The notes beneath the pieces are model-generated. The model had not been told where the DNA came from and made no database searches. It worked only from the letters and a program-made list of their open reading frames with translations. The translations under genes and the position numbers were made by a program. Shown here one piece after another: positions 3,037 to 63,609 of a DNA stretch of 64,000 nt. Source of the stretch: Prorocentrum cordatum (taxonomy: Eukaryota; Sar; Dinophyceae; Prorocentrales; Prorocentraceae); assembly GCA_963575745.1 (NCBI GenBank), contig CAUYUJ010014264.1, positions 148,829-212,828 of the forward strand. The letters run 5' to 3'. How positions within the stretch are numbered: the first letter of the stretch is position 1; each line of letters starts with the position of its first letter.

Positions 3037-6000
3037 GGCGTGAACGTTCGAGGAAGTCCTAGGCGAAAGAGCCGGCCGTTCCTGAAGGAAGTCTCGGGCG
3101 GGAGCCCACGATGGGCGGTCGATCCCCTCACGGGCGGGCCGGGCGGGTGGGACAGTCAAGCGATGGCGAGAGCGCGATTCCTAAGTAAATTGTGACGGCG
3201 TCCTTGGCGCAGAGTGTTTCCTGAGCGTCGAAAGCGCGATGTCTGAATACATTGCATGGAATTCACAGGCGAGAGCGCAATTCCTCAATCAAATGTGAAG
3301 GGTTCTCTGACGGGAGCGGGGGTCTTGATTAAATTACGAAGAAGTCTTGAATCAATTGCAAAGAAGTCTCAAGCGGGAGCGCCGTTCTTGATTAGATTGT
3401 GAGGGAGCCTCAGATGGGAGCGGGGTCTTGATTAAATTGCGAGGAAGCCGCAAGCGGGAGCACCGATCCTGAATAAATTGTGAGGAAGTCTCAAGCGGGA
3501 GCGGGGGTTCCTGAGTAAATTTGGAGGAGGTCTCAGGCGGGAGCCGTTGTTGTTGCACTCGGGGGGGCCAGGGGCACAGTTTGAGCACCAAAACGTTCCC
3601 TGTCAAAAACTAGGGTGCGAGCGTCGAGGGGCACACTTTGATTGAGCAGAAACTGCATGCACCGGTGATGGGGGATCAACCATAAAACTTCTTCTTCTTC
3701 TTCAGAAATGAGGGTTCAATAACAATCAGTTTTTCGCTCTGATCTGGTCGCGTGCCATTCAACCTGTATCTCCCAAACCTTCGGTACCCGCCCTTTTCGG
3801 CTTCGACCGTGCCCCCCTTTCTGGGGGGATATATTTGCACCCTCCGTGTGTAATTGGAGCAGCCCCGGAGAGAAGAGAGGAGAGGACGGATGGAAGGGGG
3901 AGGGAGAAGGATGGAACACGCGATTAGCAGGAGGGGGGCTAGGAGCAGAAAACACGTGGTAGAACCCGGCGGGCCCATCGGGCGGGTAGACCGTAACGGG
4001 CGGGGCGAGAAGGCGGGCCCAAGCGGCCAGGTCGAGAAGGCGTGTTCTAGAAGAGTGAGTATTGATTGAACAGCGAGGAGAGCTCAAGGGATAGCGCGAT
4101 TCACAAGTCAGCAGTGGGAAAGGCTAAAGCGAAGGTGTGGTTTTAAATAGTCGAAGGGAATCCACAGCGAGAGCGTGATTCCTGAGTGTCGAGGGCGCTG
4201 CGTCTGAATACATTGCGAGGGAGCCCCGCGCGAGAGCACAAGTTGGAAATAAACTGTGTGGAAGTATCCGGCGGGAGCCGTTGTTGTTGTACTTCGGGGG
4301 CCAGGTTGTTGTTGTTGTTGCAGTTTGGTGGCACTTCCTTTTTCCTTTTGTACAAACAGAGTGCGAGCCATGGGGGTGGCACTGTCCTTGACAAGCACCA
4401 GATGCCCCCGAGGGGGGGGATCAACAATAGATCTTCAACATGAGAAAAATGGCGACGACAACAACAACATCATCAATCAGCTCTTATTTGCTCGCGTGCC
4501 AATCAACACACATATCCCAAACCCTCGGTACCCGCCCTCCTCGTCTTCGACCGTAATACCATGGGGATTCATCTCCTTTTACCTGCCACGTGCACTTAGT
4601 GCGGCCTCTAAACAGGGAAAGGGGGACGGATGAAAAAGGGGAACAAAAAGAATGGAGCACACGGGAAAGTAGCAGGAGAGGGGGTTCGGAGCAGAAAACA
4701 CGTGGTAGAAGCAGACGGGCAGATCGGGCAGGCAGACCGTACCAGGCGGGTCGGAAAGCGGGCCCGGGCGGCCAGGACGACCAGGCGGGGTGCGGAAGCG
4801 TGAATCTTGCATGTATCGTGGGGAAGTCTTTATCGATGGTGTGGTTCCCAAGTGAAGCCTGAGAAAAGCCAGAGCGAGAGCGTGACTCCTGAGTGTCGAG
4901 GGCACGCGACAGCGCGACTCCTGCATACATTGTGAAGGATCCCGCGCGAGAGCGCGATCTCTGAATGCATCGTGAGGAAGTATCAGGCGTGAGCTGCTGT
5001 TGTTGTAGTTCGAAAACCAACACCGCAGTTTGGTGACCCTTCGCTTTCCCTCAAAAAATAGGGCGCGAGCCCTGGGAGAAACAGTGCACCTGAAAGATGC
5101 AACGGTTACCGGGCAAGGGGATCAACCTTTTAAAAGAAAAACGAACATCCAACAAACATGTTAATACTGTTCGCTTTTATCTGTTTGCGTGCCTTTCAAC
5201 GCGTATATCCCGAACCCTCGGTACCCGCCCTCTCCGTTTTCGATCGTACCACTTTGGAAGTATATCTTCATCACCTGCCACATACAAAACGCACGTGGTA
5301 CAACCAGACGGGCAGATCGGGCGGCCAGACCCTAGCGGGCGGATCGGGAAGGCGGGCCCGGGCGGCCAGGTCGAACAGGCGGGTTGGTGAAGCGTGAGTC
5401 CCGCATGAATCGCGAGGACGTCTCGAGCGATAGCGCGATTCCTATGTGTTTCGTGAGGAAGACACAGCGAGAGTGTGATTCTGCGTGTCGGGGGCGCGGC
5501 GTCAAATGAGCGGCGACGAAGTCCCACGCGAGAGCGCGATTCCTGAATAAATTGTGAGGTACACCCGCGCGAGAGCGCGATGCTGGAATACATTGTGAGG
5601 ACGTATCATGCGGGAACCGTTGTTGTTGCAGTCCTTGGGCCAAACGCGCAATTTGGTGACACCACACGTCCGCTTGTAAAAAAACAACGATTGCAAAAAC
5701 AATGATTACCGGAGGGGGGATCAAAAATAATTGATCTGTTGACATGAACGTTCAACAACAACGCCAACACCAACAAAATCAGGTTAAGACTGTTCGCTCC
5801 TATCTGCTCACGTACCAACCAATACGTATAGATCATACAGGTACCCGCCTTCGTCGTCTTCGATCTTACCCCTTTGGGGGTATATCTTCATTACCTGCCA
5901 CGCTCATTTAGCGCAGCCCCTAAAACAACGGAAGAGAAGACGGGTGGAAGGGGGAGGGATAAGAATGGAGCACGAGAGAAATTCGCAGGAGGGGGGCAAG

Positions 6001-7345: not shown

Positions 7346-8126
7346 TTCGGGGCCCAATAATGCAGGTTGGTGGCACCAAGTTCCCCCTTATAAGAGCAAC
7401 AACAATCATGCTAAGACTGTTCGCTCATATCTGCTCGCGTGCCACTCACCACGTATGTCCTAAACCCTTGGTACCCGCCGTCTTCGTTTTCGACCATACC
7501 CCCCTTGGGGGCATATCTTCTTTACCTGCCACGTGCGTTTTGCGCAGCCCCTAAAACAGCGGAAGAAAGGGCGGATGGAAGGGCGAGGTAGAAGGATGGA
7601 GCACGACAGAAAGTTGCAGGAGGGGGCTAAGAGCAGAAACACGTGGCAGAACCAGACGAGCAGACCGGGCGGGCAGACCCCAGCGGGCAGGTCGGGAAGG
7701 CGAGCCCAGGCGGCCAGGTCGAGCAGGCAGGTTGCTGAAACGTGAGTCGTGCATGAGTCGCGAGGAAGTCTCGAGCGATAGCGCGATTGCCAAGGAAATC
7801 GTGGGACAGGCCGAAGCGAGAGCGTGATTTTCGAGTGTCGAAGGCGCGGCGTTCGAGCACATGTAAAAGAAGTGCCACGCGAGAGCGCGATTCTTGCATA
7901 AAGTGTGAGGAAGTCCCGCGCGAGAGCGCGATTTGGGAATCAAGTGTGAGGAGTATCAGGCGGGAACCGCTTTTGTTGTAAACTGGGGGCCAGGGGCGTA
8001 GTTTGGTGACACCCAGCTCTCCCCTTTTAGAAGCAGGGCGCGGGCCCCAGGAGTAGCATTTGTATGGAAAAACTCATGTTTACCCAGCAGGGGGCCAATC
8101 ATAATGATTCTTCAGATATGAGAATT

Positions 8127-9470: not shown

Positions 9471-9649
9471 TTGAGTCGGGCCTGTCCCTCTACACAGGAG
9501 GAGAATTTCAACAAAAGTCACCAAAGATGGGCAGGGAGCGAGTTATTGTTTTGTTTTTTTTCTGGAGTATGTTTCATTGTGTTTTTTCTGGAGTGTATCT
9601 GTCATTCTTCGTCCGGGATGCGCCTGGAGGGGGACATGCCGGACCCAAG
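9471..9649 (+). mobile_element. TIR family A element, copy 1
   Basis: The left end is TTGAGTCGGGCCTGTCCC and the right end is the complement of TTGGGTCCGGCATGTCCC. The interior is AT-richer, as in the other family A copies. The flanking octamers do not match, so this copy is older or its flanks are rearranged. Confidence 0.6.
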
Positions 9650-9738
9650 CGTCGGTTTCCCCCCCTTCTCGGCAGGGGTCCCCCAACCTGCTCGCGCCGT
9701 TTTCGATTGCTTTTCTATCTGTAACATAGATTTGGAAC

Positions 9739-9892
9739 TAGGGGGCCACATGCGAACCCTACCCCTACCCCCCACGATTTCTGAGGGGGAGGGTGGGGTT
9801 CACTTCGCTCGGGAGCTCCCGAACAAAGAGAACCCCACACTCCCACTCAGAGATCGTGGGGGGTAGGGGCAGGGTTCGCATGTGGCCCCCTA
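9739..9892. mobile_element. Long near-perfect palindrome (family L) with TA-flanked ends
   Basis: Two arms of about 64 bp beginning TAGGGGGCCACATGCGAACC are inverted copies with only a few mismatches, around a short loop near 9,800-9,834. The TAGGGG...CCCCTA ends resemble the element at 59,950 and would fit a TA-target (Tc1/mariner-type) foldback element. It is single copy here and non-coding. Confidence 0.55.
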
Positions 9893-9924
9893 GGAACAGC
9901 ATGGAACAAAAACGCGGGAGAGGG

Positions 9925-10060
9925 GGTTCTGGCCGTGTGCGGCCTCGGGGGGCCCTCGCCGGGCCCCCAGGGCCGACGCAGAGAACTGCTCGGGGCGCAA
10001 GACCAGCCCGGGGGAGAAAGGGTCGGGACTCTTGGGGGCCGCGCAGCGAAGAAAGGATGT
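9925..10060 (+). repeat. Family G, copy
   Basis: The GGCCTCGGGGGGCCCTCGCC and AAAGGGTCGGGACTCTTGGG blocks are in the family order. Both the start and the CGTCGCATGT end are eroded. Confidence 0.5.
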
Positions 10061-10311
10061 CTGGGGCTCGAGCTGGCTCGAGGGCTGAGGTGCCCGTCTG
10101 CCGCCGTCGCCCGTGGAGCGCCCCGCGCCGCGGCGGCTGGACGCGGCTCACGAGATGCGTCCGCTTCCACCCCAGGGGGGGGGGCTCCGTGGACCGACTG
10201 GACCCCCGGGCCGCTTCCAGAGATGGCCGCCACGTCCGGCGTGGCATCTGCCGATCGGGCGGGATTGCCCCACACGGCCGCGGTCTCCAGATCGAGGGGC
10301 TGCCACTCTTT

Positions 10312-10712
10312 AGGCCTCCCAGATGGGGTCGGAGCAGATGGGGTCGGAGGACCGCGCCGCATCGCCGATGCCTCGGCGGTGCGGCTGGATGTGGGGCTCG
10401 ACTGTCTCCACGCCGATGCATCGCCGATGGCATCGCCGACGCCGCCAGCGCACCGCCGATGCATCGGCGATGCGGCGCGATCCTCCGACTGCATCTACTC
10501 GGGGGCGGCCAAGAGGGGGGTGATGACTAGGGGAGGGTGGATATCATGGCGAGGGCCGTGATCTCTCCCCAGATTTCATGGCGCCTCGTCTCGTTTCAAT
10601 ACGTCCCCGGCCCCCCCCTGAGCCGCGCTCCTGCCGCCAGCCATTTTTTGCGCCCCCCCCCCTCCTGGACGCCCCCCTCTTGGCCGCCCCCGATCTACTC
10701 GGGCCCCATCTA
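10312..10712. mobile_element. Family B element, copy 3, split by an H element
   Basis: The left end AGGCCTCCCAGATGGGGTCG leads into GCGCCGCATCGCCGATGC blocks. The inverted right half ends GATCCTCCGACTGCATCTACT at 10,499 and resumes at 10,693 as ATCTACTCGGGCCCCATCTAG. The intervening 193 bp is family H. With it removed, the right end matches the uninterrupted copy at 48 kb (CCGACCGCATCTACTCGGAC then CCCATCTAG). Confidence 0.65.
10500..10692 (+). mobile_element. Family H TIR element inserted in family B
   Basis: The ends are CGGGGGCGGCCAAGAGG and its inverted complement. ATCTACT occurs immediately outside both ends (10,493-10,499 and 10,693-10,699), as expected of a target-site duplication. 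The interior contains TGATGACTAGGGG and ATTTCATGGCGCCTC, which recur in the inverted copy at 59,020-59,202. It is non-coding and non-autonomous. Confidence 0.65.
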
Positions 10713-10790
10713 GAATCGCGCCGCCGGCGAACTTTCGGGCCCGGCCTCGCGGACGCCCGCGGTTCTTGCCGGCCGAGGGCCCGGCCCAGG

Positions 10791-11124
10791 GAGGAGGAGG
10801 AGGGAGGAGGAGGAGGAGGAGGAGGAGGAGGAGGAGGAGGAGGAGGAGGAGGAGGAGGAGGAGGAGGAGGAGGAGGAGGAGGAGGAGGAGGAGGAGGCGG
10901 AGGAGGAGGAGGAGAGGGAGGAGGAGGGATCGAGGAGGAGGAGGAGGATGAGGAGGAGGAGGAGGAGGAGGAGGAGAGGACGAGGAGGAGGAGGACGAGG
11001 AGAGGAGGAGGAGGAGGAGGAGGAGGGAGGAGGAGGAGGAGGAAGGAGGAGGAGGAGGAGGAGGCGGAGGAGGAGGAGGAGGAGGAGGAGGAGGAGGAGG
11101 AGGAGGAGGAGGAGGAGGAGGAGG
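10791..11124 (+). repeat. (GGA)n purine tract
   Basis: About 330 bp of GGA triplets carries few interruptions. It pairs in inverted sense with the CTC tract at 11,282-11,686. The poly-Gly, poly-Glu and poly-Arg open frames over it are not genes. Confidence 0.95.
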
Positions 11125-11254
11125 ACCACTACGCTTCGCACTTGGCGGAGCGCAGGCGGGATGCAATCGGGGGGCCCATCCGCCCCGGCCGGCGTGGAGC
11201 GCCGGCCAGCCCCACGGTGGGGAGGGGGCACCCAGGCCCGGCGGCGTCGTGGCA

Positions 11255-11284
11255 CGGGAACGCGGCGGGAGGTTTTTGGCCACC
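11255..11284 (+). repeat. Family G 5' fragment
   Basis: AACGCGGCGGGAGGTTTTTG is identical to the start of the full G copy near 11,740. Here it runs straight into the CTC tract, so either the tract has replaced the rest of this copy or the region between the two starts has expanded. Confidence 0.5.
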
Positions 11285-11686
11285 TCCTCCTCCTCCACCA
11301 TCTTCCTTCCTCCTCCTTCTCCTCCTCCTCCTCCTCTTCCTTCTCTTCCTCCTCCTCCTCCTCCTCCTCCTCCTCCTCCTCCTCCTCCTCCACCATCTTC
11401 CTTCCTCCTCCTGCTCCTCCTCCTCCTCCGCCATCTTCCTCCTCCTCCTCCTCCTTGATCTTCCTTCCTCCTCCTTCTCCTTTTCCTCCTCCTCTTCCTC
11501 GCCCTCCTCCTCCTCCTCCACCATCTTCCGTCCTCCTCCTTCTCCTCCTCCTCCTCCTCCTGCTCCTCCTCCTCTTCCTCCCCCTCCTCCTCCTCCTCCA
11601 CCATCTTCCTTCTCCTCCTCCTCCTCCTGCTCCTCCTGCTCCTCCTCCTCCTCCTCCTCCTCCTCCTCCTCCTCCTCCTCCTCCTC
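11282..11686 (+). repeat. (CTC)n pyrimidine tract
   Basis: About 400 bp of CTC triplets is punctuated at rough intervals by CACCATCTTCCTTC, which suggests a higher-order unit of roughly 60-120 bp. Confidence 0.95.
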
Positions 11687-11739
11687 GGGTCGCCTACGGC
11701 CCCGGGGGAAACCGTGCATGCTGGCATCGTGACAAAGAA

Positions 11740-11900
11740 ACGCGGCGGGAGGTTTTTGGCCAGGCTCGGCCTCCGAGAGGCCCTGGCCAGGCCCCTGGAC
11801 TGTCACAGTACCGACTCGGGACAAAGAAGCGGCCTTGGGAAAGTGGTCGGGGCTTCCAGGGGCCCCGCGTTGCAAAAAGTGCAGGCGTCGCATGTTAGGG
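11740..11900 (+). repeat. Family G, full-length copy
   Basis: It begins AACGCGGCGGGAGGTTTTTG, passes GGCCTCCGAGAGGCCCTGGC and GGGGCTTCCAGGGGCCCCGC, and ends at GGCGTCGCATGT. It is the best single reference for the family in this window. Confidence 0.65.
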
Positions 11901-12434
11901 AGGAGTACCAGGATCGAGGGCGAGAGGGGCAGGCAAAGAGGGGGGAGGGACCCGCGAGGTCCGCTGAGCCTGAGCGCATCCCGTGGCACAACCCCGAGGC
12001 TGTCTTCGCTGCCTTCGCGTCGGCTGGCTGGGCGCCCAGACGCGCTCTCCACGGTCGCGCCAGGATGTGGGCAGGTGGAGTTTTCACTGTCTGAGGTCTG
12101 GGGCAGAAGCGTGGGTGGAGCGAGAGACCGGAAAGGGAGAGGGAGGACATGGATGATGAGGACGAGGAGGAGGCCAGAGGAGGTTGAGGAGGACGGAGGG
12201 CGAACCAGAGGAGAGAAGGAGGAAGAGCAGAGTTGTGATTCAATCACCCTCAAAATTGACCGACGTACCTCGCACCCGTCCCTCCCACGGGAAGGCGTTG
12301 TCTAAGACGATGCTTGTGCTCATAATCGTGCGTATTTTATCGGGGCGATGGGGTCGCATTTCACGTGATTTGTTTACGTCGGGTGTACGTGCCAGGGCGT
12401 CTTATCATGTGCGGGACGGGGACAAGGGCGAGGG
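11901..12434. other. GC-rich intergenic DNA, nothing recognised
   Basis: There are only short overlapping frames and a GAGGAGGA-rich stretch near 12,150-12,230. No motif or repeat could be assigned. Confidence 0.3.
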
Positions 12435-12525
12435 CGGAGGAGGACGACGAGGACGAGGAAGAGGAGGAAGAGGAGGAAGAGGAGGAGGAGGAGGAGAAGG
12501 AGGAGGAGCAGCAGCAGCAGCAGGA
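12435..12525 (+). repeat. GGA/GAC purine-rich tract
   Basis: About 90 bp of GGA, GAA and GAC triplets ends in CAG triplets. It forms the left half of a second purine-then-pyrimidine pair with 12,820-12,906. Confidence 0.85.
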
Positions 12526-12819
12526 GCATGATGAGAGGGAAGAGGGAGAAGCCATCCCCTCGGTTCGCCCCGCCGTGGCCCCCGGGGCACGACGGCCAGG
12601 GCGAGGGCGAGGGCGAGGAGCAGGACGAAGAGCAGGAGGCACGACGAGGGGTGGGGGGCCCCGCCCGGCGGCGGGTGGGCGACGAGGGCCCCGTCCCCTC
12701 GTCGATCCCGATCTCGCGGCCGACGCCCGCCGACGCGGTTGTCCCGAGCGGCCCGATGCTGGCGTCGCCCGGCGCACCTCCCGCCCGCCAGGCGGGGACG
12801 GCATCGAGTCCTGGGCATT

Positions 12820-12906
12820 CCTCCTCCTCCTCCTCCTCCTCCTCCTCCTCCTCCTCCTCCTCTTCCTCCTCTTCCTCCTCCTCCTCCTCCTCCTCCTCCT
12901 CCTCCT
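12820..12906 (+). repeat. (CTC)n tract
   Basis: About 85 bp of CTC triplets is complementary to the purine tract 300 bp upstream. Confidence 0.9.
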
Positions 12907-13610
12907 GCTATGTGCATCCGTTTCTGTGATCCCCCGCTTAGCATGTTCTGCAGACGGCCTGGTTGTCTTCGGCAGATGCGCATGAGGGCAAACGCCCCCA
13001 CAGCGCCCCCAGAGTGGCATCGCAGGCAGCAGTTCTGGTCCAAGCGCCAGGTCGGCGGGAGGGGTGTGTGAACGGGGCCCGGGAGGAGGCTGGACAGGTG
13101 AGTCGGCGCTCAGACCGGCGAGGAGGCGGAGAGAGTCAGGAGGGGAAAGAACGCACAGACACAATTAATCGCCGATTCCCCCGAAAATATGGGAAAATAT
13201 GGGAAGTGGGGGGGGGGGAAGACGAAAGCCCAGAAAATATGGTGAAAGACTGGGAGTTCTGTTGTCTGTGTCTCTTCCTCTGTGTGCCCCATTCAGAGAG
13301 GGCGCGAGCCATTTCGACGACCGGCCGAGGAGCGGGCCCGATGGGAGGCGGTGGGCAGCCGCCCCGGGCCGTGGCAGCGAGTCGGGCCGAACGAAAGGGG
13401 GGATGGGGAACGGGGGGGGTACGAAATGTGCTGCGTGCAGCTGGTTTCGGCCCCACTGCGGGGCCCATTCCTCGAAACATGCATCAGCCACGTGAGCTGA
13501 TTCTCAAACCCCCCCATTTGCTATCGCCCCTTTCGCCCGACCCGAGCGAGGCGCGCCGGACCAGAGGTCAGCTTCGGGAGCTGGGCGGGCAAAGGCCCGC
13601 AGAGGATCGG
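12907..13610. other. Intergenic DNA, nothing recognised
   Basis: GAAAATATGG occurs twice around 13,186-13,245. An open frame runs from 12,963 to 13,793 but continues straight through the family A element, so it is not credible as a gene. Confidence 0.3.
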
Positions 13611-13942
13611 GGGTGGACAGACCTCCTACCCTTAAGTCGGGCCTGTCCCTCTACAGGGGGAATCTATTCAGAAGTAGTCAAGCAATGGTCTGGGGACGAT
13701 TTTTTGACCATTTCTGAGTATTTTAAAGCATTTGTTTGCCAATGTTGCATGTTTCGTCCAAAATCCCCATGTAGGGGGACAGGCCCGACTTAATCCTGCC
13801 CTGACACGTCGAGTAAGGAATTTGCCGCTTTCGGTTCGCGAGAGGGCGTCGCGGCCCTCATTTGTGCAGGTTCAGTTCCGTCGGTTTCGGTCCCAGGCCG
13901 TTCTCACGAAAAGGAGGTTCACTAAAGAGAGGTCTGTCCACC
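13611..13942. mobile_element. Family J element, copy 1, interrupted by family A
   Basis: The ends GGTGGACAGACCTC and GAGGTCTGTCCACC are inverted copies. A 162 bp family A element plus one copy of its 8-bp target lies 13 bp inside the left end. Subtracting both leaves 162 bp, close to the 164 bp of the uninterrupted copy at 15,620. Shared internal blocks are GACACGTCGA, TTTCGG.TC.CGAGAGGGCG and TTCACTAAA. Confidence 0.7.
13632..13793 (+). mobile_element. TIR family A element, copy 2, nested in family J
   Basis: The ends are TTAAGTCGGGCCTGTCCC and its complement. Flanking octamers are TCCTACCC and TCCTGCCC (7 of 8 identical). The interior includes AGTCAAGCAATGG, GGGGACGAT and TTTCGTCCAAAATCCCC, shared with copies 4 and 5. 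Confidence 0.75.
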
Positions 13943-14120
13943 GCCGAGAGGAGGCAGACCGCGAGGAGAGGGGAGGTCGGGAACGGCGCGCCTGTCTGGC
14001 ACCCCTGTGGGCCAGAGGGTGGCAGCGTCAGGCCTCACGTCGTGGACGGGGGCCTCGGCGGGAGGCTCCTGGCCGTGCTCGGCCCCCCCTTTTGCCAGGG
14101 CCCCAGGCCGTCCAGAACTT

Positions 14121-14250
14121 GGCATCGCTCGGACGTGTGCACTTTTTCCTCGGCGAGAACCATCGAGGACCATCCGGGACCATCGAGCAAAAAAAAATCA
14201 ACGCACGAAACCGAAAAATGCACGGGAAATGGGCGTGCGAACGACAGCAA
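14121..14250 (+). repeat. Dispersed repeat family F, copy 2
   Basis: It runs from TTGGCATCGCTCGGACGTGT to AAATGCACGGGAAATGGGCG and keeps the ACGCACGAAACCGAAAAATG block. It is followed by a G-like GTTTTGGCCTCGAGGCCCTC stretch. Confidence 0.55.
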
Positions 14251-14540
14251 GTTGAGAAAATCACGACGTCGGGGTTTTGGCCTCGAGGCCCTCGAGGCCC
14301 CTTCGGTGCGCATCCAGGGCGGCCCGGCCGTTCCCTGCCGAGCCGGCCCCTGCTGTGACGGCCCCCCTCGCCTCACTCCGAGACTTGGGCAGGTTGCCGG
14401 AGCGGAGCTTCGAGGGCGAGGGGGCCGTCACGGAAGGGGTCGGTTCGGCTGCGCCCGACCGCACCCCCCAGACATCCGATGCCTCGAGTTTTTCCGTGCA
14501 GTTGCCACGAGCAGCTTAGTTTTGCAGAGGTAGCCTAGTT

Positions 14541-14733
14541 TTAAGTCGGGCCTGTCCCCCTACAGGGGGACTTTCGACGAAAAATGAAAAATACCCCAAA
14601 AATAGTCCAAAAATACTCCAAAAATAGTCTGGGGATTTGTTTTGTTAGTATGTTTTGCTCTTTTGGGGTATTGGGGGGGTATGTTCTGTTTTTCGTCGAA
14701 AATCCCCCTGTAGGGGGGACACGCCCGACATAA
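14541..14733 (+). mobile_element. TIR family A element, copy 3
   Basis: The ends are TTAAGTCGGGCCTGTCCC and the complement of TTATGTCGGGCGTGTCCC. Flanking octamers GCCTAGTT and ACCTAGTT agree at 7 of 8 positions. Subterminal TTTCGACGAAAAA and TTTTTCGTCGAAAA extend the inverted repeat, and the interior has a tandem AAAAATAGTCC motif. Confidence 0.75.
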
Positions 14734-14994
14734 ACCTAGTTGGCACGAACATGCGTGCGCTCGAGTTGCTCCTCTCGTGGGGCACGAACAGCCCCTGCTC
14801 TGCCGGGGTGCCCTCGTGCTCTTCGCGCCTGGGCGTCCCGCCTTGGGATGCTCTTCGCTGGGAGCATCTCCGCGGGGCCTCGGGCCGCGGCGCAGGGGCG
14901 CACCTCCTAGATTCGCGCTCTCGTGGCAGGGTGTCGACTGCACCGGTAGGATACCCTCAGGAGTCTCGAGCCCAGACACGATCGCGTCGTAAAA

Positions 14995-15170
14995 AAAAAA
15001 AAATCAGGACGGGAGGTCTTTGGTCCATTTCGGCCTCGGGGGGCCCTCGCCGGGCCTCGGGACCGCCAAAAGACGACTCGGGATGAGAAACCAGTCCCGG
15101 GGAATGGGTCTGGACCGTTGGGGACGCCGTCGTGAACAAATCAGGACGTCGCATGTCCGGGACCCTTCCC
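14995..15170 (+). repeat. Family G, full-length copy
   Basis: Starting just after an A-rich stretch, it shows CGGGAGGTCTTTGGTCCATT, GGCCTCGGGGGGCCCTCGCC, GACTCGGGATGAGAAACCAG and a GACGTCGCATGTCCGGGAC end. Another fragment (CGAGGGCCCCCGGAGGCCGA) follows in reverse near 15,212. Confidence 0.6.
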
Positions 15171-15281
15171 CCAGGGCTGTATGTCATCTTGAGTCATTGC
15201 TTGACTCGCAGGCGAGGGCCCCCGGAGGCCGAAAGCGGGGAGAGCGGTCCGGAGTGACCCCTTCAATAATACGCTGGAGTC

Positions 15282-15482
15282 GCAGGCCTAGAGGTTGACA
15301 CCAACACCAACACCGGCGGTGTGCCTCCACCGAGGGAAGAAGATTCCGATCTCGGTGATGGTGGTAATCTTCTGGGTTCCAGGGCGACCGAAGTATTACC
15401 ACCGACACCGAAATCCAGGATCGTCTTCCCCCTGTGGAGGCGACCCCCTGTGTTGGTGTTGGTGCCCATCTCCAGGCCTCCG
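15282..15482. mobile_element. Family I long inverted repeat (foldback element)
   Basis: Two arms of about 100 bp share GCAGGCCTAGAGG-type ends, ACACCAACACCAACAC, GCCTCCAC.GAGGGAAGA and GGTGGTAAT in inverted order and nearly meet in the middle. It is a single copy here with no open frame. Confidence 0.6.
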
Positions 15483-15619
15483 ATGGGCGGTTTGGGCCCG
15501 TCCACACTTGACACCCGCCGGCGTGATGTCTGCTTCCATCCGCGGCCCGAGGGGCCCCGATTGCCTCCCCGGGGACAGGCCTTCGCCCCGGATCTTTTTG
15601 TCGTTGCCCTTGGGTCGGG

Positions 15620-15783
15620 GCTGGACAGAACCCCCAACAGTGACACGTCGATTAGTGAATTGTCCGTTTTCGGCTCTCGAGAGGGCGCCGTGGCCGTTGT
15701 TTTCCAGGCTTGCGCCCGCCGGGTTTGGGCCCGAGGTCGTTTTCACTAAACCACGTTTTGCTAAAGGGGGTTCTGTCCATCCC
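15620..15783. mobile_element. Family J element, copy 2 (uninterrupted)
   Basis: The ends GGACAGAACCCCC and GGGGGTTCTGTCC enclose GACACGTCGATTAGTGAATT and the inverted TTTTCACTAAACCACG. Its 164 bp length and internal order match the split copy at 13,611 and show what that site looked like before insertion. Confidence 0.65.
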
Positions 15784-15967
15784 CGATTGGGGGGCCCACG
15801 AGCGGGCCCCCGGCGGCGGAAGAGCCTGTGAGAAAGGCTCGCCGTGACAGAGACCTGCCGCCGAGATCCCCTCACAGCGTCGCGTTCAAGGTCGGCCCCT
15901 GGGCCCAGAGCCTCCCAGGGCCGACACGCACCTGTTGTCCGAGCTGCGTCCAGCCGTGGCGACAAGG

Positions 15968-16134
15968 GTCAGCGCGCAGACGGGGGTGGCAGGAGGGGGG
16001 AGGGCTTCTTAGAAGCACCCCTGCTTCTTAGAAGGTGCGGGTCTTTTCTATAGGTGTAAGGCCAGCGCCTTCTAAGAAGCAGCCTCCTCCTAAGAAGCCC
16101 TCCCCCCTCCCTCCACCCCCTTGTGCGCGCCGCC
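15968..16134. mobile_element. Family D palindromic element, copy 2
   Basis: The ends are AGCGCGCAGACGGGGG and CCCCCTTGTGCGCGC. The stem has GGCTTCTTAGAAGCA and CTGCTTCTTAGAAGGTGC with their inverted partners, and the centre reads near TATAGGTGTAAGG. It has the same length class as copies 1 and 3. Confidence 0.6.
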
Positions 16135-16589
16135 AAAAGGGCCCCCCCCCGAAAGCCAACTCCTGTCGTCGCCCTCCTCTGCTGGCCCCTCCCTGGGCGT
16201 CCGACCGGCGCGGGCCTGGCGGCGGGAACGGAACGCTGGCTCATCCGCCAGCCGCGCACGCGCGATGGGGGCAGGAGAAGCCCTTGGACCCCGCTGGCGG
16301 GGGAGAAGCTCGCCACGACGGGCGGGGTGCTACGCCTTCGGGGAGGGTGGAGGAGAGAATCTTGAAGCTCGTTGAGCGGCAGCGAGCACGATCTGTGTTT
16401 TGGGGGCGACGGAGGAGGGGGGCAATGCTCGTAGGGTAAGAGCAAGCCCAAGCAGCCCAATCATCGGTCAGAGCAAACCTCAGATCCGAGCTTCTCGCGA
16501 GTGGGGGTCGTAGGGACTGCGACTGACGGATCCAAAGCCCCCCCAGCGACCTCCAAAGAGAATCATCGATCTTGTCCCAGCTGAAAGGG
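16135..16589. other. GC-rich intergenic DNA, nothing recognised
   Basis: Open frames on both strands are short or continue into flanking repeats. No assignable motif was seen. Confidence 0.3.
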
Positions 16590-16715
16590 CGCTTGGCATC
16601 GATTGGACGTGTGTATCTCTTCGCGGCAAGAACCCTCGAGGAGCAGTGCTGCTCGCCTTGCGCGAAAGATGCACGCACGAAGCCGAAAAGTGCACAGGGA
16701 ATGGACGTCCGAGGA
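16590..16715 (+). repeat. Dispersed repeat family F, copy 3
   Basis: It runs from TTGGCATCGATTGGACGTGT to GGAATGGACGTCCGAGGAC and contains GCACGCACGAAGCCGAAAAG. No family G follows this copy. Confidence 0.55.
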
Positions 16716-16941
16716 CTCATCCTCCCCCTCGGTCCCCGAGCTTTCGCCGTCCTCTGAGCTGCCCCCTCTGCTGGCGCCGCGCCCCCCACAGAGCCCCCGA
16801 GGCCCCGCGGGCGAGCGCGCGATGCGCCCGGCGGACTTCGGCCACCTGTGCGAGAGCCTGCGCCGCGCGCAGGACCCCCGGTCCGGCCGGCTGGCCGGCC
16901 GCCGAGCCGAGCGGCAGCCGTCGGGAGCCTTGAGCCTGGGT

Positions 16942-17099
16942 TTGAGTCGGGCACGTCCCTCTACAGGGGGGATGTTCCAAGATAGTAAAAGTAGTCAGGG
17001 GACGATGTTTGGACAATGTTTGCTTATTTTGGGGGAGTGCGTTGCATGTTTTCTATTTGTCGTCCAAAATCCGCCTGTGGGGGGACATGCCCGACCTAA
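16942..17099 (+). mobile_element. TIR family A element, copy 4
   Basis: The ends are TTGAGTCGGGCACGTCCC and the complement of TTAGGTCGGGCATGTCCC. Flanking octamers GCCTGGGT and TACTGAGT agree at only 5 of 8. The interior has GTAGTCAGGGGACGATG and GTCGTCCAAAATCCGCC. Confidence 0.7.
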
Positions 17100-17262
17100 T
17101 ACTGAGTCAGTGCAAGCGGGGGTCAGTCAGAGCGCCGGAACTTGCACGATCCTTCAGGGCCAGGGGCGCACGGGCCCAGATCGGAGCCTGTGCCGCGCGC
17201 AGGACGCCATGTCCGGCTGGCAAGCCGCCCGCTGGGCAGCAGGCGGGGGGGGAGAAGCAAGT

Positions 17263-17430
17263 CCCAGACGTGCGACGTCCTCGTTTTTTCAACGCGAGGT
17301 CCCCGGAAGCCCCGACCCTTTCCCCCGGGCCAGCTTTTCATCCTGAATCGTTTTTTGACGGCCCCGGTATACCCGTCGAGGGCCTCGAGAGGCCGAAAAC
17401 GACGAAAGATTTGCGTCCTGATGTTTGCTA
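17263..17430 (-). repeat. Family G, reverse copy
   Basis: Read on the opposite strand it follows the family order: CGGCCTCTCGAGGCCCTCGA, GATTCAGGATGAAAAGCTGG, AAAGGGTCGGGGCTTCCGGG, then GACGTCGCACGTCTGGGAC. Confidence 0.6.
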
Positions 17431-17673
17431 CGACGCGATCATGTTTGGGAATGTTTGTTTGAAAAAGAGGCCCTGTTCTCTTGCAGCCAGCCAGTCAGTA
17501 CGCTCCGCCTCAGCTGCCAGAGCGCGCGAGCGGATTGCATCTGCCGCGCAACGACGAAGAAATTTTGAACATGAAAGAATGTCTGGCCAAAAAGCGGCCC
17601 CTCGGTGGCCCCTCGGCGCCCCCTCGGCGGCTCGTTCGCTGGCCCCCTCGGCGGCCCCTCGGCGATTCCTCCC

Positions 17674-17804
17674 TTGAGATCCTGGCGTTGCAGTTTTTGT
17701 CGCAGCCGGTGGGAAAAAGACACACTGTGGGAAAAAAACGCAAAAACACACATTGTGTGTGTTTTTGTTCCCACAGTGTGTTTTTTCCCCCCCACACACA
17801 CACA

Positions 17805-17837
<33 letters not shown>

Positions 17838-17930
17838 TGTGTGTGTTTTGTGTGTGTGTGTGTGTTTTTGTATGTGTGTTTTTTTCCCCTTGAGATCCTG
17901 GCGTTGCAGCTTTTGTCGCAGCTGGCGATG
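17674..17930. repeat. Direct repeat pair around an ACA/TGT hairpin and (CA)n tract
   Basis: TTGAGATCCTGGCGTTGCAG followed by a TTTTGTCGCAG tail occurs near 17,674 and again near 17,891. Between them lies an inverted repeat (CACACTGTGGGAAAAA against TTGTTCCCACAGTGTG) and then CA and TG runs to about 17,882. The direct repeats suggest a local duplication separated by microsatellite growth. Confidence 0.6.
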
Positions 17931-18006
17931 CTGTCTTGTTCCGGGCCCCGGGGCCCTCACAGATCAATCCGGCTCGAAACATGCAGCAGAAGGACGCGGT
18001 ATAGGG

Positions 18007-18153
18007 TTGAGTCGGGCGTGTCCCTCTACAGGAGGAATAGCCAAAAATAGTCAAACAGTAGTCAGGGGACGATTTGTTTTGACGATTCTTGAGCATGTTT
18101 TGATCATTTGCTCGTGTTCAAAATCCGCCTGTAGAAGGACACGCCCGACCTAC
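18007..18153 (+). mobile_element. TIR family A element, copy 5
   Basis: The ends are TTGAGTCGGGCGTGTCCC and the complement of GTAGGTCGGGCGTGTCC. Flanking octamers GTATAGGG and ATCTAGGG agree at 6 of 8. The interior AGTAGTCAGGGGACGATTTG is the best-conserved internal motif of the family. Confidence 0.7.
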
Positions 18154-60153: not shown

Positions 60154-60512
60154 GTCATGCGCCTCTTTCTCCTGCGTGGGCTGGGCCCCACTGGCCGATT
60201 TACCCCCCTGATGGAAATATAGGCTGTTCTCTTCGGGTTTCGAGGGGCATATCCCCAACCGAGGTGGTGAGACGGTGGGGCTCGAGATTTGGATGGGGAT
60301 GGAGATGGGGATCGGTTAAACGATACTGATCCCTGTCTCCGAATCGTCGTCGCCGTCATGCTCCTCTTTCTCCTCCTCCCCCTGGGGTCGATGGGATCTT
60401 CACAGATTCACGGCCCCTGGCCAGGCCCATCCAGGGCCAGGAAAGGTGGTTATGCGCGCCTCTGGCGTGGCCAGGGATGCTGCTTAACCAATCCTGGGCC
60501 CATGGCCTGGGG

Positions 60513-63500
60513 TTAGGTCGGGCATGTCCCCCTACAGGCGGATTTTGGACGAAAGGTTAAACATACGCAGTACATGTATATATCTCTATGTATATAATCA
60601 AAACAAACAAAATATCGAACAATTGTCCCAATACTAAATCTTGACTACGTGAACAACCACCCTTCGGGTGTTACGGAGGTTGTGGGGGGGAGAAGAGGGG
60701 GGGAACCAACATCTGCCTCAATCGATCTCACTATCGATCTCACTCAACGGGACACCACGGGACACCACGGGACACAACGGGACACCTCTCGATCTCACTA
60801 TCGGTCTCACTATCGACCTCACTCAACGGGACACTAGAAGACACCACGGGACACCACGGGACACCACGGGACACCCTGGGACACCACATCGATCGCACTA
60901 TCGATCTCACTATCGATCTCACTCAACTGGACACCTTGGGACACCACGGGACACCTATTGATCTCACTATCGATCTCACTTTTTCGGACACCACGGGACA
61001 CCTCGGGACACCACGGGGACTTGTCGATCTCATTATCGATCTGAATATTGATCTCACTTTTTGGGACACCACGGGGCACCACATCGATCTGAGTATCGGT
61101 CTCAGTATCGATCTCACTCAACGGGACACCACGGGACACCACGTGACACCTGTCGATCTCACCATCGATCTCACTTTTTGGGACACCACGGGACACCTCG
61201 GGGCACCACATCGATCTCAATATCGATCTGAGTATCGATCTCACTCGACGGGACAACATAATTAGGACACCATGGGACACCACGGGACACCGCGGGATAC
61301 CGCGAGCCACTGCCGGACTGGCGGGCGGGGGAGAATCGTTTGTCTCGACTTCGCCCTAGCAACGGCGGACACCACGGGACGCCACGGGACAGACGGGACA
61401 CCGCAGGCCACCGCCGGACGGGCGGGAGGGGGAGAATCATGTGTGTTGACTTCGCCCTAGCAACGGCGGGTTCATTCCTCTCGCGCGCACACGCAACTTC
61501 GCCTCGCCCGCACGCACGACACGAACGAAACGAAACGATTTCCCGGTTCGGGGTCTCCGTTCCACTGCGATCTCACCCGGTAACCTCCGATACGACCACC
61601 CTTCGGGTGAGAAGGAGGTCGCGGGGGGGGAGAAGGGGGGGAACCAACATCTGACTCAATCGATCTCACTATCGATCTCACTCAACGGGACACCACGGGA
61701 CACCGCGGAACACAACGGGACACCACGGGACACTTGTCGATCTCACTATCGATCTCACTATCGATCTCACTCAACGGGACACCACGGGACACCACGGGCC
61801 GCCACGGGACACCACGGGACACCTCTCGATCTCACTATTGGTCTCTCTATCGATCTCACCACCGATCTCACTCAGCGGGACACCATAATTGGGACACCAC
61901 GGGACACCACGGGACACCGCGGGACACCACATCGATCTCACTATCGATCTCACTATCGATCTCACTCAACGGGACACCACGGGACACCACGTGACACCTG
62001 TCGATCTCACTATCGATCTGAATAGCGATCTCACTTTTTGGGACACCACGGGGCACCACATCGATCTGAGTATCGATCTGAGTATCGGTCTCAGTATCGA
62101 TCTCACTCAACGGGACACCAAGGGACACCACGTGACACCTGCCGATCTCACCATCGATCTCACTTTTTGGGAGACCACGAGACACCTCGGGGCACCACAT
62201 CGATCTCAGTATCGATCTGAGTATCGATCTCACTCGACGGGACAACATATAATTAGGACACCACGGGACACCACGGGACACCGCGGGATACCGCGAGCCA
62301 CTGCCGGACGGGCGGGCGGGGGAGAATCGTTTGTCTTGACTTCGTCCTAGCAACGGCGGACACCACGGGACGCCACGGGACAGACGGGACACCGCAGGCC
62401 ACCGCCGGACGGGCGGGAGGGGGAAAATCATGTGTGTTGACTTCGCCCTAGCAACGGCGGGTTCATTCCTCTCGCGCGCACACGCAACTTCGCCTCGCCC
62501 GCACGCACGACACGAACGAAACGAAACGATTTCCTGGTTCGGGGTCTCCGTTCCACTGCGATCTCACCCGGTAACCTCCGATACGACCACCCTTCGGGTG
62601 ATAAGGAGGTCGCGGGGGGGGGAGAAGGGGGGGAACCAACATCTGACTCAATCGATCTCACTATCGATCTCACTCAACGGGACACCACGGGACACCGCGG
62701 GACACAACGGGACACCACGGGACACTTGTCGATCTCACTATCGATCTCACTATCGATCTCACTCAACGGGACACCACGGGACAACACGGGCCGCCACGGA
62801 ACACCACGGGACACCTCTCGATCTCACTATTGGTCTCTCTATCGATCTCACTACCGATCTCACTCAACGGGACACCATAATTGGGACAGCACGGGACACC
62901 GCGGGACACCACATCGATCTCACTATCGATCTCACTATCGATCTCACTCAACGGGACACCACGGGACACCACGTGACACCTGTCGATCTCACTATCGATC
63001 TGAATAGCGATCTCACTTTTTGGGACACCACGGGGCACCACATCGATCTGAGTATCGATCTGAGTATCGGTCTCAGTATCGATCTCACTCAACGGGACAC
63101 CAAGGGACACCACGTGACACCTGCCGATCTCACCATCGATCTCACTTTTTGGGAGACCACGAGACACCTCGGGGCACCACATCGATCTCAGTATCGATTT
63201 GAGTATCGATCTCACTCGACGGGACAGCATAATTAGGACACCACGGGACACCACGGGACACCGCGGGATACCGCGAGCCACTGCCGGACGGGCGGGCGGG
63301 GGAGAATCGTTTGTCTTGACTTCGCCCTAGCAACGGCGGACACCACGGGACGCCACGGGACAACACGGGACACCGCAGGCCACCGCCGGACGGGCGGGAG
63401 GGGGAGAATCATGTGTTGACTTCGCCCTAGCAACGGCGGGTTCATTCCTCTCGCGCGCACACGCAGCTTCGCCTCGCCCGCACGCACGACGCGAACGAAA

Positions 63501-63601
63501 CGAAACGACTTCCCGGTTCGGGGCCTCGGTTCCACTGCTATCTCACTCCCCAACCTCCGATTTCAAAATATTTTCCCTGTGCAGGGACATGCTCGACTCA
63601 A
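60513..63601 (-). mobile_element. TIR family A element, copy 6, carrying a satellite array
   Basis: The ends are TTAGGTCGGGCATGTCCC and the complement of TTGAGTCGAGCATGTCCC. Flanking octamers GCCTGGGG (60,505-60,512) and GCCTAGGG (63,602-63,609) agree at 7 of 8. Just inside the left end, GGATTTTGGACGAA, ATTGTCC and TTGACTAC match the inverted interior of copies 4 and 5. From about 60,650 the interior is replaced by about 2.9 kb of satellite. At 3,089 bp it is roughly 20 times longer than its relatives. No transposase is visible. Confidence 0.75.
60656..63565 (+). repeat. Three-unit ~0.94-0.99 kb higher-order satellite
   Basis: ACCACCCTTCGGGTG marks unit starts at 60,656, 61,595 and 62,586. 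Each unit contains strings of GGGACACCAC-type 11-mers, runs of ATCGATCTCACT 12-mers, two copies of a GGAGAATC...CTTCGCCCTAGCAACGGCGG segment and a CGAACGAAACGAAACGA stretch. Units two and three are almost identical; unit one is more diverged. The frames across it (RSHYRSHYRSH, TGHHGTPRDT) are repeat translations. Confidence 0.9.
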
Positions 63602-63609
63602 GCCTAGGG

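Follow-up and report, generated by a model that had tools for sequence, protein, structure and literature searches.

A tandem trimer of a Helitron2-like element nested in a family A MITE of Prorocentrum cordatum and the probable steps of its formation

Near the right end of the window, the 64,000-nucleotide stretch of Prorocentrum cordatum DNA that was analysed, an array of three related units is enclosed by the two halves of a short MITE-like element, termed family A. The best explanation of this locus, to which a probability of about 0.82 is assigned, is that a dispersed element, named S, invaded a family A MITE, dimerised, and expanded to a trimer. In the proposed order of events, the family A MITE would have inserted first, with an 8-bp target duplication. 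S, a putative non-autonomous Helitron2-like rolling-circle element with internal minisatellites, would then have inserted at TA|T in the MITE interior, where the target was not duplicated. A second S would have become joined head-to-tail to the first, most likely via TA|T of the first copy's own end (CCTA|TACGACC), and one unequal crossover, or an equivalent exchange, between misaligned dimer units would have produced the middle unit and the trimer. The features of the locus, with window coordinates and strand, are as follows.

60505-60512, no strand: left octamer GCCTGGGG, imperfect 8-bp target duplication of family A, from the terminal inverted repeat (TIR) and octamer scan
60513-60647, plus: left portion (135 bp) of the interrupted family A MITE, including its TIR (TTAGGTCGGGCATGTCCC...)
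60648-61590, minus: S unit 1, 943 bp; the Helitron-like orientation is the minus strand
60648 edge, minus: diverged 3' end of unit 1 (the left edge in the window), CGTGAACAACCACCC in place of CCTATACGACCACCC
60658-60670, minus: 3' hairpin of unit 1, CACCC-GAA-GGGTG
61584-61601, plus: join of units 1 and 2, CCTCCGA|TACGACCACCC, the form predicted by self-insertion
61591-62581, minus: S unit 2, 991 bp, a mosaic with its left part as in unit 3 and its right part as in unit 1
61597-61609, minus: 3' hairpin of unit 2
62337-62383, no strand: interval containing the exchange point of unit 2
62575-62592, plus: join of units 2 and 3, identical in its 18 bases to the join of units 1 and 2
62582-63560, minus: S unit 3, 979 bp
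62588-62600, minus: 3' hairpin of unit 3
63542-63560, minus: array 5' end as read on the Helitron-like strand, TC plus the 5' asymmetric terminal inverted repeat (TCGGAGGTTGGGGAGTGAG)
63561-63601, plus: right portion (41 bp) of the interrupted family A MITE, including its TIR
63602-63609, no strand: right octamer GCCTAGGG

The inverted arms of the host element (60506-60538 and 63576-63608) are 76% complementary across 33 nt, and the ends of family A lie within them, at 60513 and 63601. Outside these ends, GCCTGGGG and GCCTAGGG are identical at 7/8 bases; random octamer pairs from the window reach 7 or 8 of 8 matches at a frequency of about 0.0008. The preliminary description of this DNA, in which family A inverted ends and an octamer duplication surround three head-to-tail units of ~0.98 kb, is thereby confirmed, with octamers that agree at seven rather than all eight positions. 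A TIR scan of the window and 37 non-redundant S loci returned 18 TIR pairs, six from the window and 12 from the loci, with two right ends (L026 and L034) each paired with two left ends. The octamers of these pairs match at 8/8 in three, at 7/8 in four, and at 1 to 6 of 8 in 11. The octamer and flank counts, and those of joins and edge footprints at the fetched loci, leave out L011 and L037, which are duplicates, and L048, which is the window copy. Because 7/18 pairs have octamers with 7-8 of 8 matches, compared with ~0.0008 for random pairs, family A is regarded as MITE-like with an 8-bp target duplication, and it combines the two MITE hallmarks of TIRs and a target duplication of constant length. 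MITEs with 8-bp target duplications are a known class, which family A resembles in its imperfect TIRs and the length of its duplication; its window copies measure 147-193 bp. The window DNA is 59% G+C; the interior of the split copy is 27% G+C and holds 13 TAT/ATA per 116 bp, compared with 11.6 per kb in the window. An element that targets A|T could plausibly have landed in this A+T-rich interior.

When the S array is cut out at TA|T, the window family A copy is restored to 135+41 = 176 bp and aligns end-to-end with eight uninterrupted copies. Against these eight diverged copies, the TA|T offset lies within 3 points of the best offset in 7/8 and is the best (tied) in one; it falls 7 points short for L015, and the exact join base is not fixable by comparison with diverged copies. 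A second family A copy, in locus L018, is split at another position by a single S, and with S removed, its 109+51 bp align likewise. The octamers of L018, TGTTAGCC/TGTAAGCC, are identical at 7/8 bases, which is what insertion of S into already completed family A copies would give. Besides the window, L018 is the one locus of the 37 fetched in which S lies inside a family A pair, as judged by a TIR scan in which diverged TIRs could be missed, and in L024, S adjoins a broken family A arm.

Two origins had been offered for this arrangement: that family A captured or seeded a satellite, or that the satellite invaded an existing element. The second holds, with S as the invader. The first, in which the satellite was acquired or seeded by family A and the two move together as a single unit, agrees with the octamers that flank the composite and with the second S-bearing family A copy, L018, whose octamers match at 7/8, but it is contradicted by three observations and considered exceedingly improbable. 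The position of S is not the same in the two copies (135+41 bp in the window and 109+51 bp in L018), the window has three units and L018 has one, and S has ends of its own with thousands of end-motif copies. Occurrence of the unit across the genome without family A ends, together with unduplicated octamers at every other satellite-bearing copy, had been proposed as evidence against a satellite-carrying family A; the unit is indeed widespread without such ends, but the S-bearing L018 copy does have octamers that match at 7/8. The suggestion that a mobile element could spread repeats through the genome fits S, and not family A.

S is a dispersed non-coding element, with a window-strand span from CCTATACGACCACCCTTCGGGTG to CTCACCCCCCAACCTCCGA. 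When the left-hand portion of the array (60505-61000) was used to search the 4.13-Gb assembly (21,875 contigs), 97 matches were obtained, and 30 of the 39 best matches outside the window's own start at query position 149, which corresponds to window position 60653. In the 37 non-redundant S loci, which were fetched as the best matches of this search, the boundaries of S are sharp within unrelated flanks. An exact 26-mer adjoining one S end occurs 571+564 = 1,135 times in the assembly, and the opposite end, represented by an exact 19-mer, occurs 1,496+1,479 = 2,975 times; the backwards control of each occurs 0 times. The lengths of 14 dispersed copies range from 794 to 1,167 bp, with pairwise identities of 80-92% (median 85.8%, 91 pairs). 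Central tandem repeats, as blocks of 10 and 12 bp, are present in all three window units. Classical satellite DNA, which has long head-to-tail arrays as its main form, was considered as a description of S and set aside, as S units are dispersed. Direct S-S joins were found at 2/37 other loci (L009 and L013), and exact S-S joins of the two forms described below total 23, compared with 1,135 and 2,975 end motifs. S pairs with short spacers were also seen, tail-to-tail in L015 and head-to-head in L031 and L047. A 23-base motif of the S 3' end had 0 occurrences in viral contigs.

On the minus strand, the consensus ends of S are TC-GGAGGTTGGGGGG... and ...CCCCCCACAACCTCC-TTAT-CACCC-GAA-GGGTG-GTCGTATAGG. 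These were derived from 45 rows of 5' ends, four of which look like chance matches, and 50 rows of 3' ends, one of which is very diverged; all were retained. The 5' end is TCGGAGG on the element strand (CCTCCGA as the right end on the window strand, with its last G in 37/40 and its last A in 39/40); in canonical Helitrons, TC occupies this end. The asymmetric terminal inverted repeats (ATIRs) of the consensus are GGAGGTTGGGGGG, which lies 2 bp inside the 5' end, and CCCCCC(A)CAACCTCC, which lies 27 bp inside the 3' end; they are degraded in window units 1 and 2. In predicted folds of the two consensus ends, the 5' inverted repeat also makes a 9-bp hairpin (GGTTGGGGG/CCCCCAACC), and a 3' hairpin lies 10 nt from the end, with the 3' inverted repeat just upstream of it. 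S ends in TAGG, rather than in the CTRR of canonical Helitrons, and shares with canonical Helitron1 an insertion point between A and T.

The consensus ends of S match the terminal plan published for Helitron2. As given in excerpts of PMC3627910, this plan comprises a 5'-T, ATIR copies spaced 0-2 bp from the 5' terminus and 20-30 bp from the 3' terminus, a 5' hairpin built with the ATIR, and a 3' hairpin. S shares with the non-autonomous Helitron2 elements of these excerpts the 5'-T, the ATIR spacing, both hairpins, and the lack of a target duplication; it differs in its 3' TAGG and its A|TA target, and no RepHel partner was found in the matches listed. Non-autonomous Helentrons of the HINE/DINE-1 type (excerpts of PMC4067079) and the oyster Cg_HINE (excerpts of PMC7492417) resemble S in being non-coding, with subterminal inverted repeats, a 3' palindrome, genome-spread central tandem repeats, and no target duplication. 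In contrast to S at A|TA, these elements are described there as inserting in T-rich or TT targets, and in the window it is whole S elements that are tandem, not just their central repeats. The Fusarium FoHeli elements (excerpts of PMC5148889) are comparable in their ATIRs, in the evidence for joined ends, and in nested or composite copies ascribed to self-insertion; FoHeli1/2 differ from S in that they end in ATTTT, insert between TNAT and A, and include coding elements. As far as that literature goes, S constitutes a new family of an already described type.

The target of S is TA|T on the window strand, or A|TA on the element strand. In the flanks of 46 left and 40 right ends, which include a few array-internal ends and one right end that is probably a chance match, position -2 is T in 39/46, position -1 is A in 40/46, and position +1 is T in 32/40. 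No target duplication at S ends was seen by eye in the flanks of the fetched loci. The excerpts of PMC3627910 describe most Helitron2 families as free of target duplications and some families as having them. Locus L020 provides a filled site in which a 1,686-bp S filled with ATC repeats sits inside another S. When its flanks are rejoined, CACTATCTA|TCTCACTTTTT differs from the corresponding S sequence, CACTATCGATCTCACTTTTT (window 60965-60984), by one substitution, with no gain or loss of bases. With the 80 bp rejoined from L020 as query, 371/433 join-spanning matches in the other loci and the window are gap-free within 7 bases of the join; because the L020 site is itself a 12-bp repeat, many of these matches reflect repeat units instead of a single homologous site, but the register is kept. 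The inserted element (3425-5110 of L020, on the reverse complement) belongs to a second S type, whose interior is long and ATC-rich; the S around it is of the first type.

Both joins in the window read CCTCCGA|TACGACC, which is the product expected if S inserts at TA|T within the CCTA|TACGACC end of another S. This form (CCTCCGATACGACC, a 24-base query) has 16 exact occurrences at 14 loci, with two of the occurrences in the window, and the plain end-to-end join CCTCCGA|CCTATACGACC has seven with a query of unequal length (22 bases). Locus L009 has the self-insertion join with two substitutions further in. Self-insertion further predicts a companion footprint, TACCTACCTATACGACC (search form TACCTACCTATACGACCACCC), at the outer edge of an array. 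This footprint is exact in L009, where it may have arisen by chance because the stretch consists of TA-rich repeats. The diverged left edge of the window array is without the predicted extra CCTA: GACTA is followed there by 11 nt to the shared ACC, compared with 15 predicted.

Self-insertion is the probable, and not the sole conceivable, source of the window dimer. Other routes to a dimer do exist, because seven plain joins and a third form of join, in L013, are present. With the nesting retained, the dimer might instead have been made by rolling-circle read-through (a concatemer) or by circle integration, and CCTA later lost from the join. The plain joins, the window edge lacking the extra CCTA, and the joined ends and tandem insertions reported for Helitron2-type or other Helitrons in excerpts of PMC5148889 are in line with such a route. 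It is judged rather unlikely here, as the exact form given by TA|T self-insertion is seen in both window joins and in 14 more, about twice the number of plain joins, and L009 has the second predicted footprint.

The probable growth of the array from two units to three is recorded in unit 2. The three window units are 92.6-97.5% identical, with 97.5% between units 2 and 3 and 93.4% between units 1 and 2. The latter value is above those of all 91 dispersed pairs compared, and so the array members are more closely related than average. The preliminary description of units 2 and 3 as almost identical fits the overall value, but over its final ~200 bp, unit 2 resembles unit 1 (99.0%) more than unit 3 (93.4%). 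Up to position 747 of unit 2, 56/61 informative substitutions match unit 3, and from position 793 onward, 11/11 match unit 1; so sharp a split was given by 0/20,000 shuffles. This mosaic is as would result from one unequal crossover in a dimer: an out-of-register exchange in [unit 1][unit 3] would produce exactly this middle unit and two identical joins. A similar mosaic could be left by gene conversion, which would not, however, increase the number of units on its own. The patterned manner in which the units differ (92.6-97.5% identity) also argues against the trimer being an assembly artefact, that is, a collapsed or duplicated unit, as do the direct S-S joins in L009 and L013. A draft genome rich in repeats is prone to raise this concern, and such an artefact is considered very unlikely.

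Mobilisation of S would presumably depend on a RepHel protein supplied in trans. The Helitron_like_N domain has at least 151 matches in the genome, with those listed all over the cut-off and a best E of 6e-56; 150 of 1,615 candidates were scored, and matches were found in 0/14 control genomes. Many of the matches lie in open frames of >1,000 aa, and some share scores and frame lengths across different contigs; the genome perhaps holds a large and young Helitron population. Among the matches listed, none is a RepHel-coding element with S ends, and of the eight Rep matches listed for contigs as far as C892, none is on the same contig as any of the exact S 5' ends listed. The matches listed do place an S 26-mer ~29 kb from a Rep domain on contig C550 and one S end 2.6 kb from a Rep domain on C1584. 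An S/RepHel composite on C1584 was considered and is unsupported, as the first 351 bases there are an ordinary repeat-filled S.

That no autonomous partner is tied to S among the matches listed is also compatible with movement by another duplication-free enzyme, such as an IS200/IS605-like Y1 HUH transposase or a tyrosine recombinase, in place of a RepHel Helitron2; hairpin ends without target duplication are common to such groups (excerpts of PMC3627910). This alternative is improbable, since ATIRs at 2 and 27 bp, with the 5' copy in a hairpin, are Helitron2 features in the same excerpts and Rep domains are abundant in the genome. Rolling-circle transposition by a Helitron2-type RepHel would be the presumed chemistry of S.

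Transposon-to-satellite origins are usually inferred from mature arrays. At this locus, an otherwise ordinary nesting, the MITE, the S insertion, the dimer join, and the unequal exchange can be read base by base as a record of how a jumping element can become a tandem repeat. It is tentatively proposed that, since the terminus of S carries its own preferred target (TA|T), self-insertion yields ordered dimers that unequal exchange expands, which would make S a built-in satellite generator in a dinoflagellate-like genome. If so, joins and edge footprints would mark each step of satellite generation by a rolling-circle family. Because S has thousands of end motifs and a join that can be recognised, cases of self-insertion can be counted and set against those of the concatemer route. 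Other short tandem arrays dispersed in this genome may likewise owe their origin to Helitron2-like elements that carry minisatellites.

Elsewhere in the window, a varied 41-bp unit (GAAGTCCCACGCGAGAGCGCGATTCGGGAATAAAGTGTGAG at 7869-7952) recurs as five separate short tandem arrays inside a 7-kb region (1353-1455, 2151-2228, 3344-3544, 5523-5600, and 7869-7952), and approximately three copies of a 95-bp unit, with 93% matches, occupy 34332-34627. A search of the window against Rfam gave 0 matches at the gathering score, and a Pfam search of ten of the 57 listed open reading frames of at least 200 aa gave 0 families. Five family A copies are clustered inside 9 kb (9471-18153), and several of their octamers centre on CTAG. 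With introners (excerpts of PMC7789003) considered as background, an introner role for family A is conceivable, and the G+TTRAGT at its left end could resemble a splice donor. Finally, a 571-bp family A copy (L030:4963-5533) has identical octamers, TCCTTGGA, and encloses a different minisatellite-bearing stretch of the GGGCTATA type with a possible hairpin (CCCAATCA/TGATTGGG); this insert is perhaps another non-autonomous element nested in family A.
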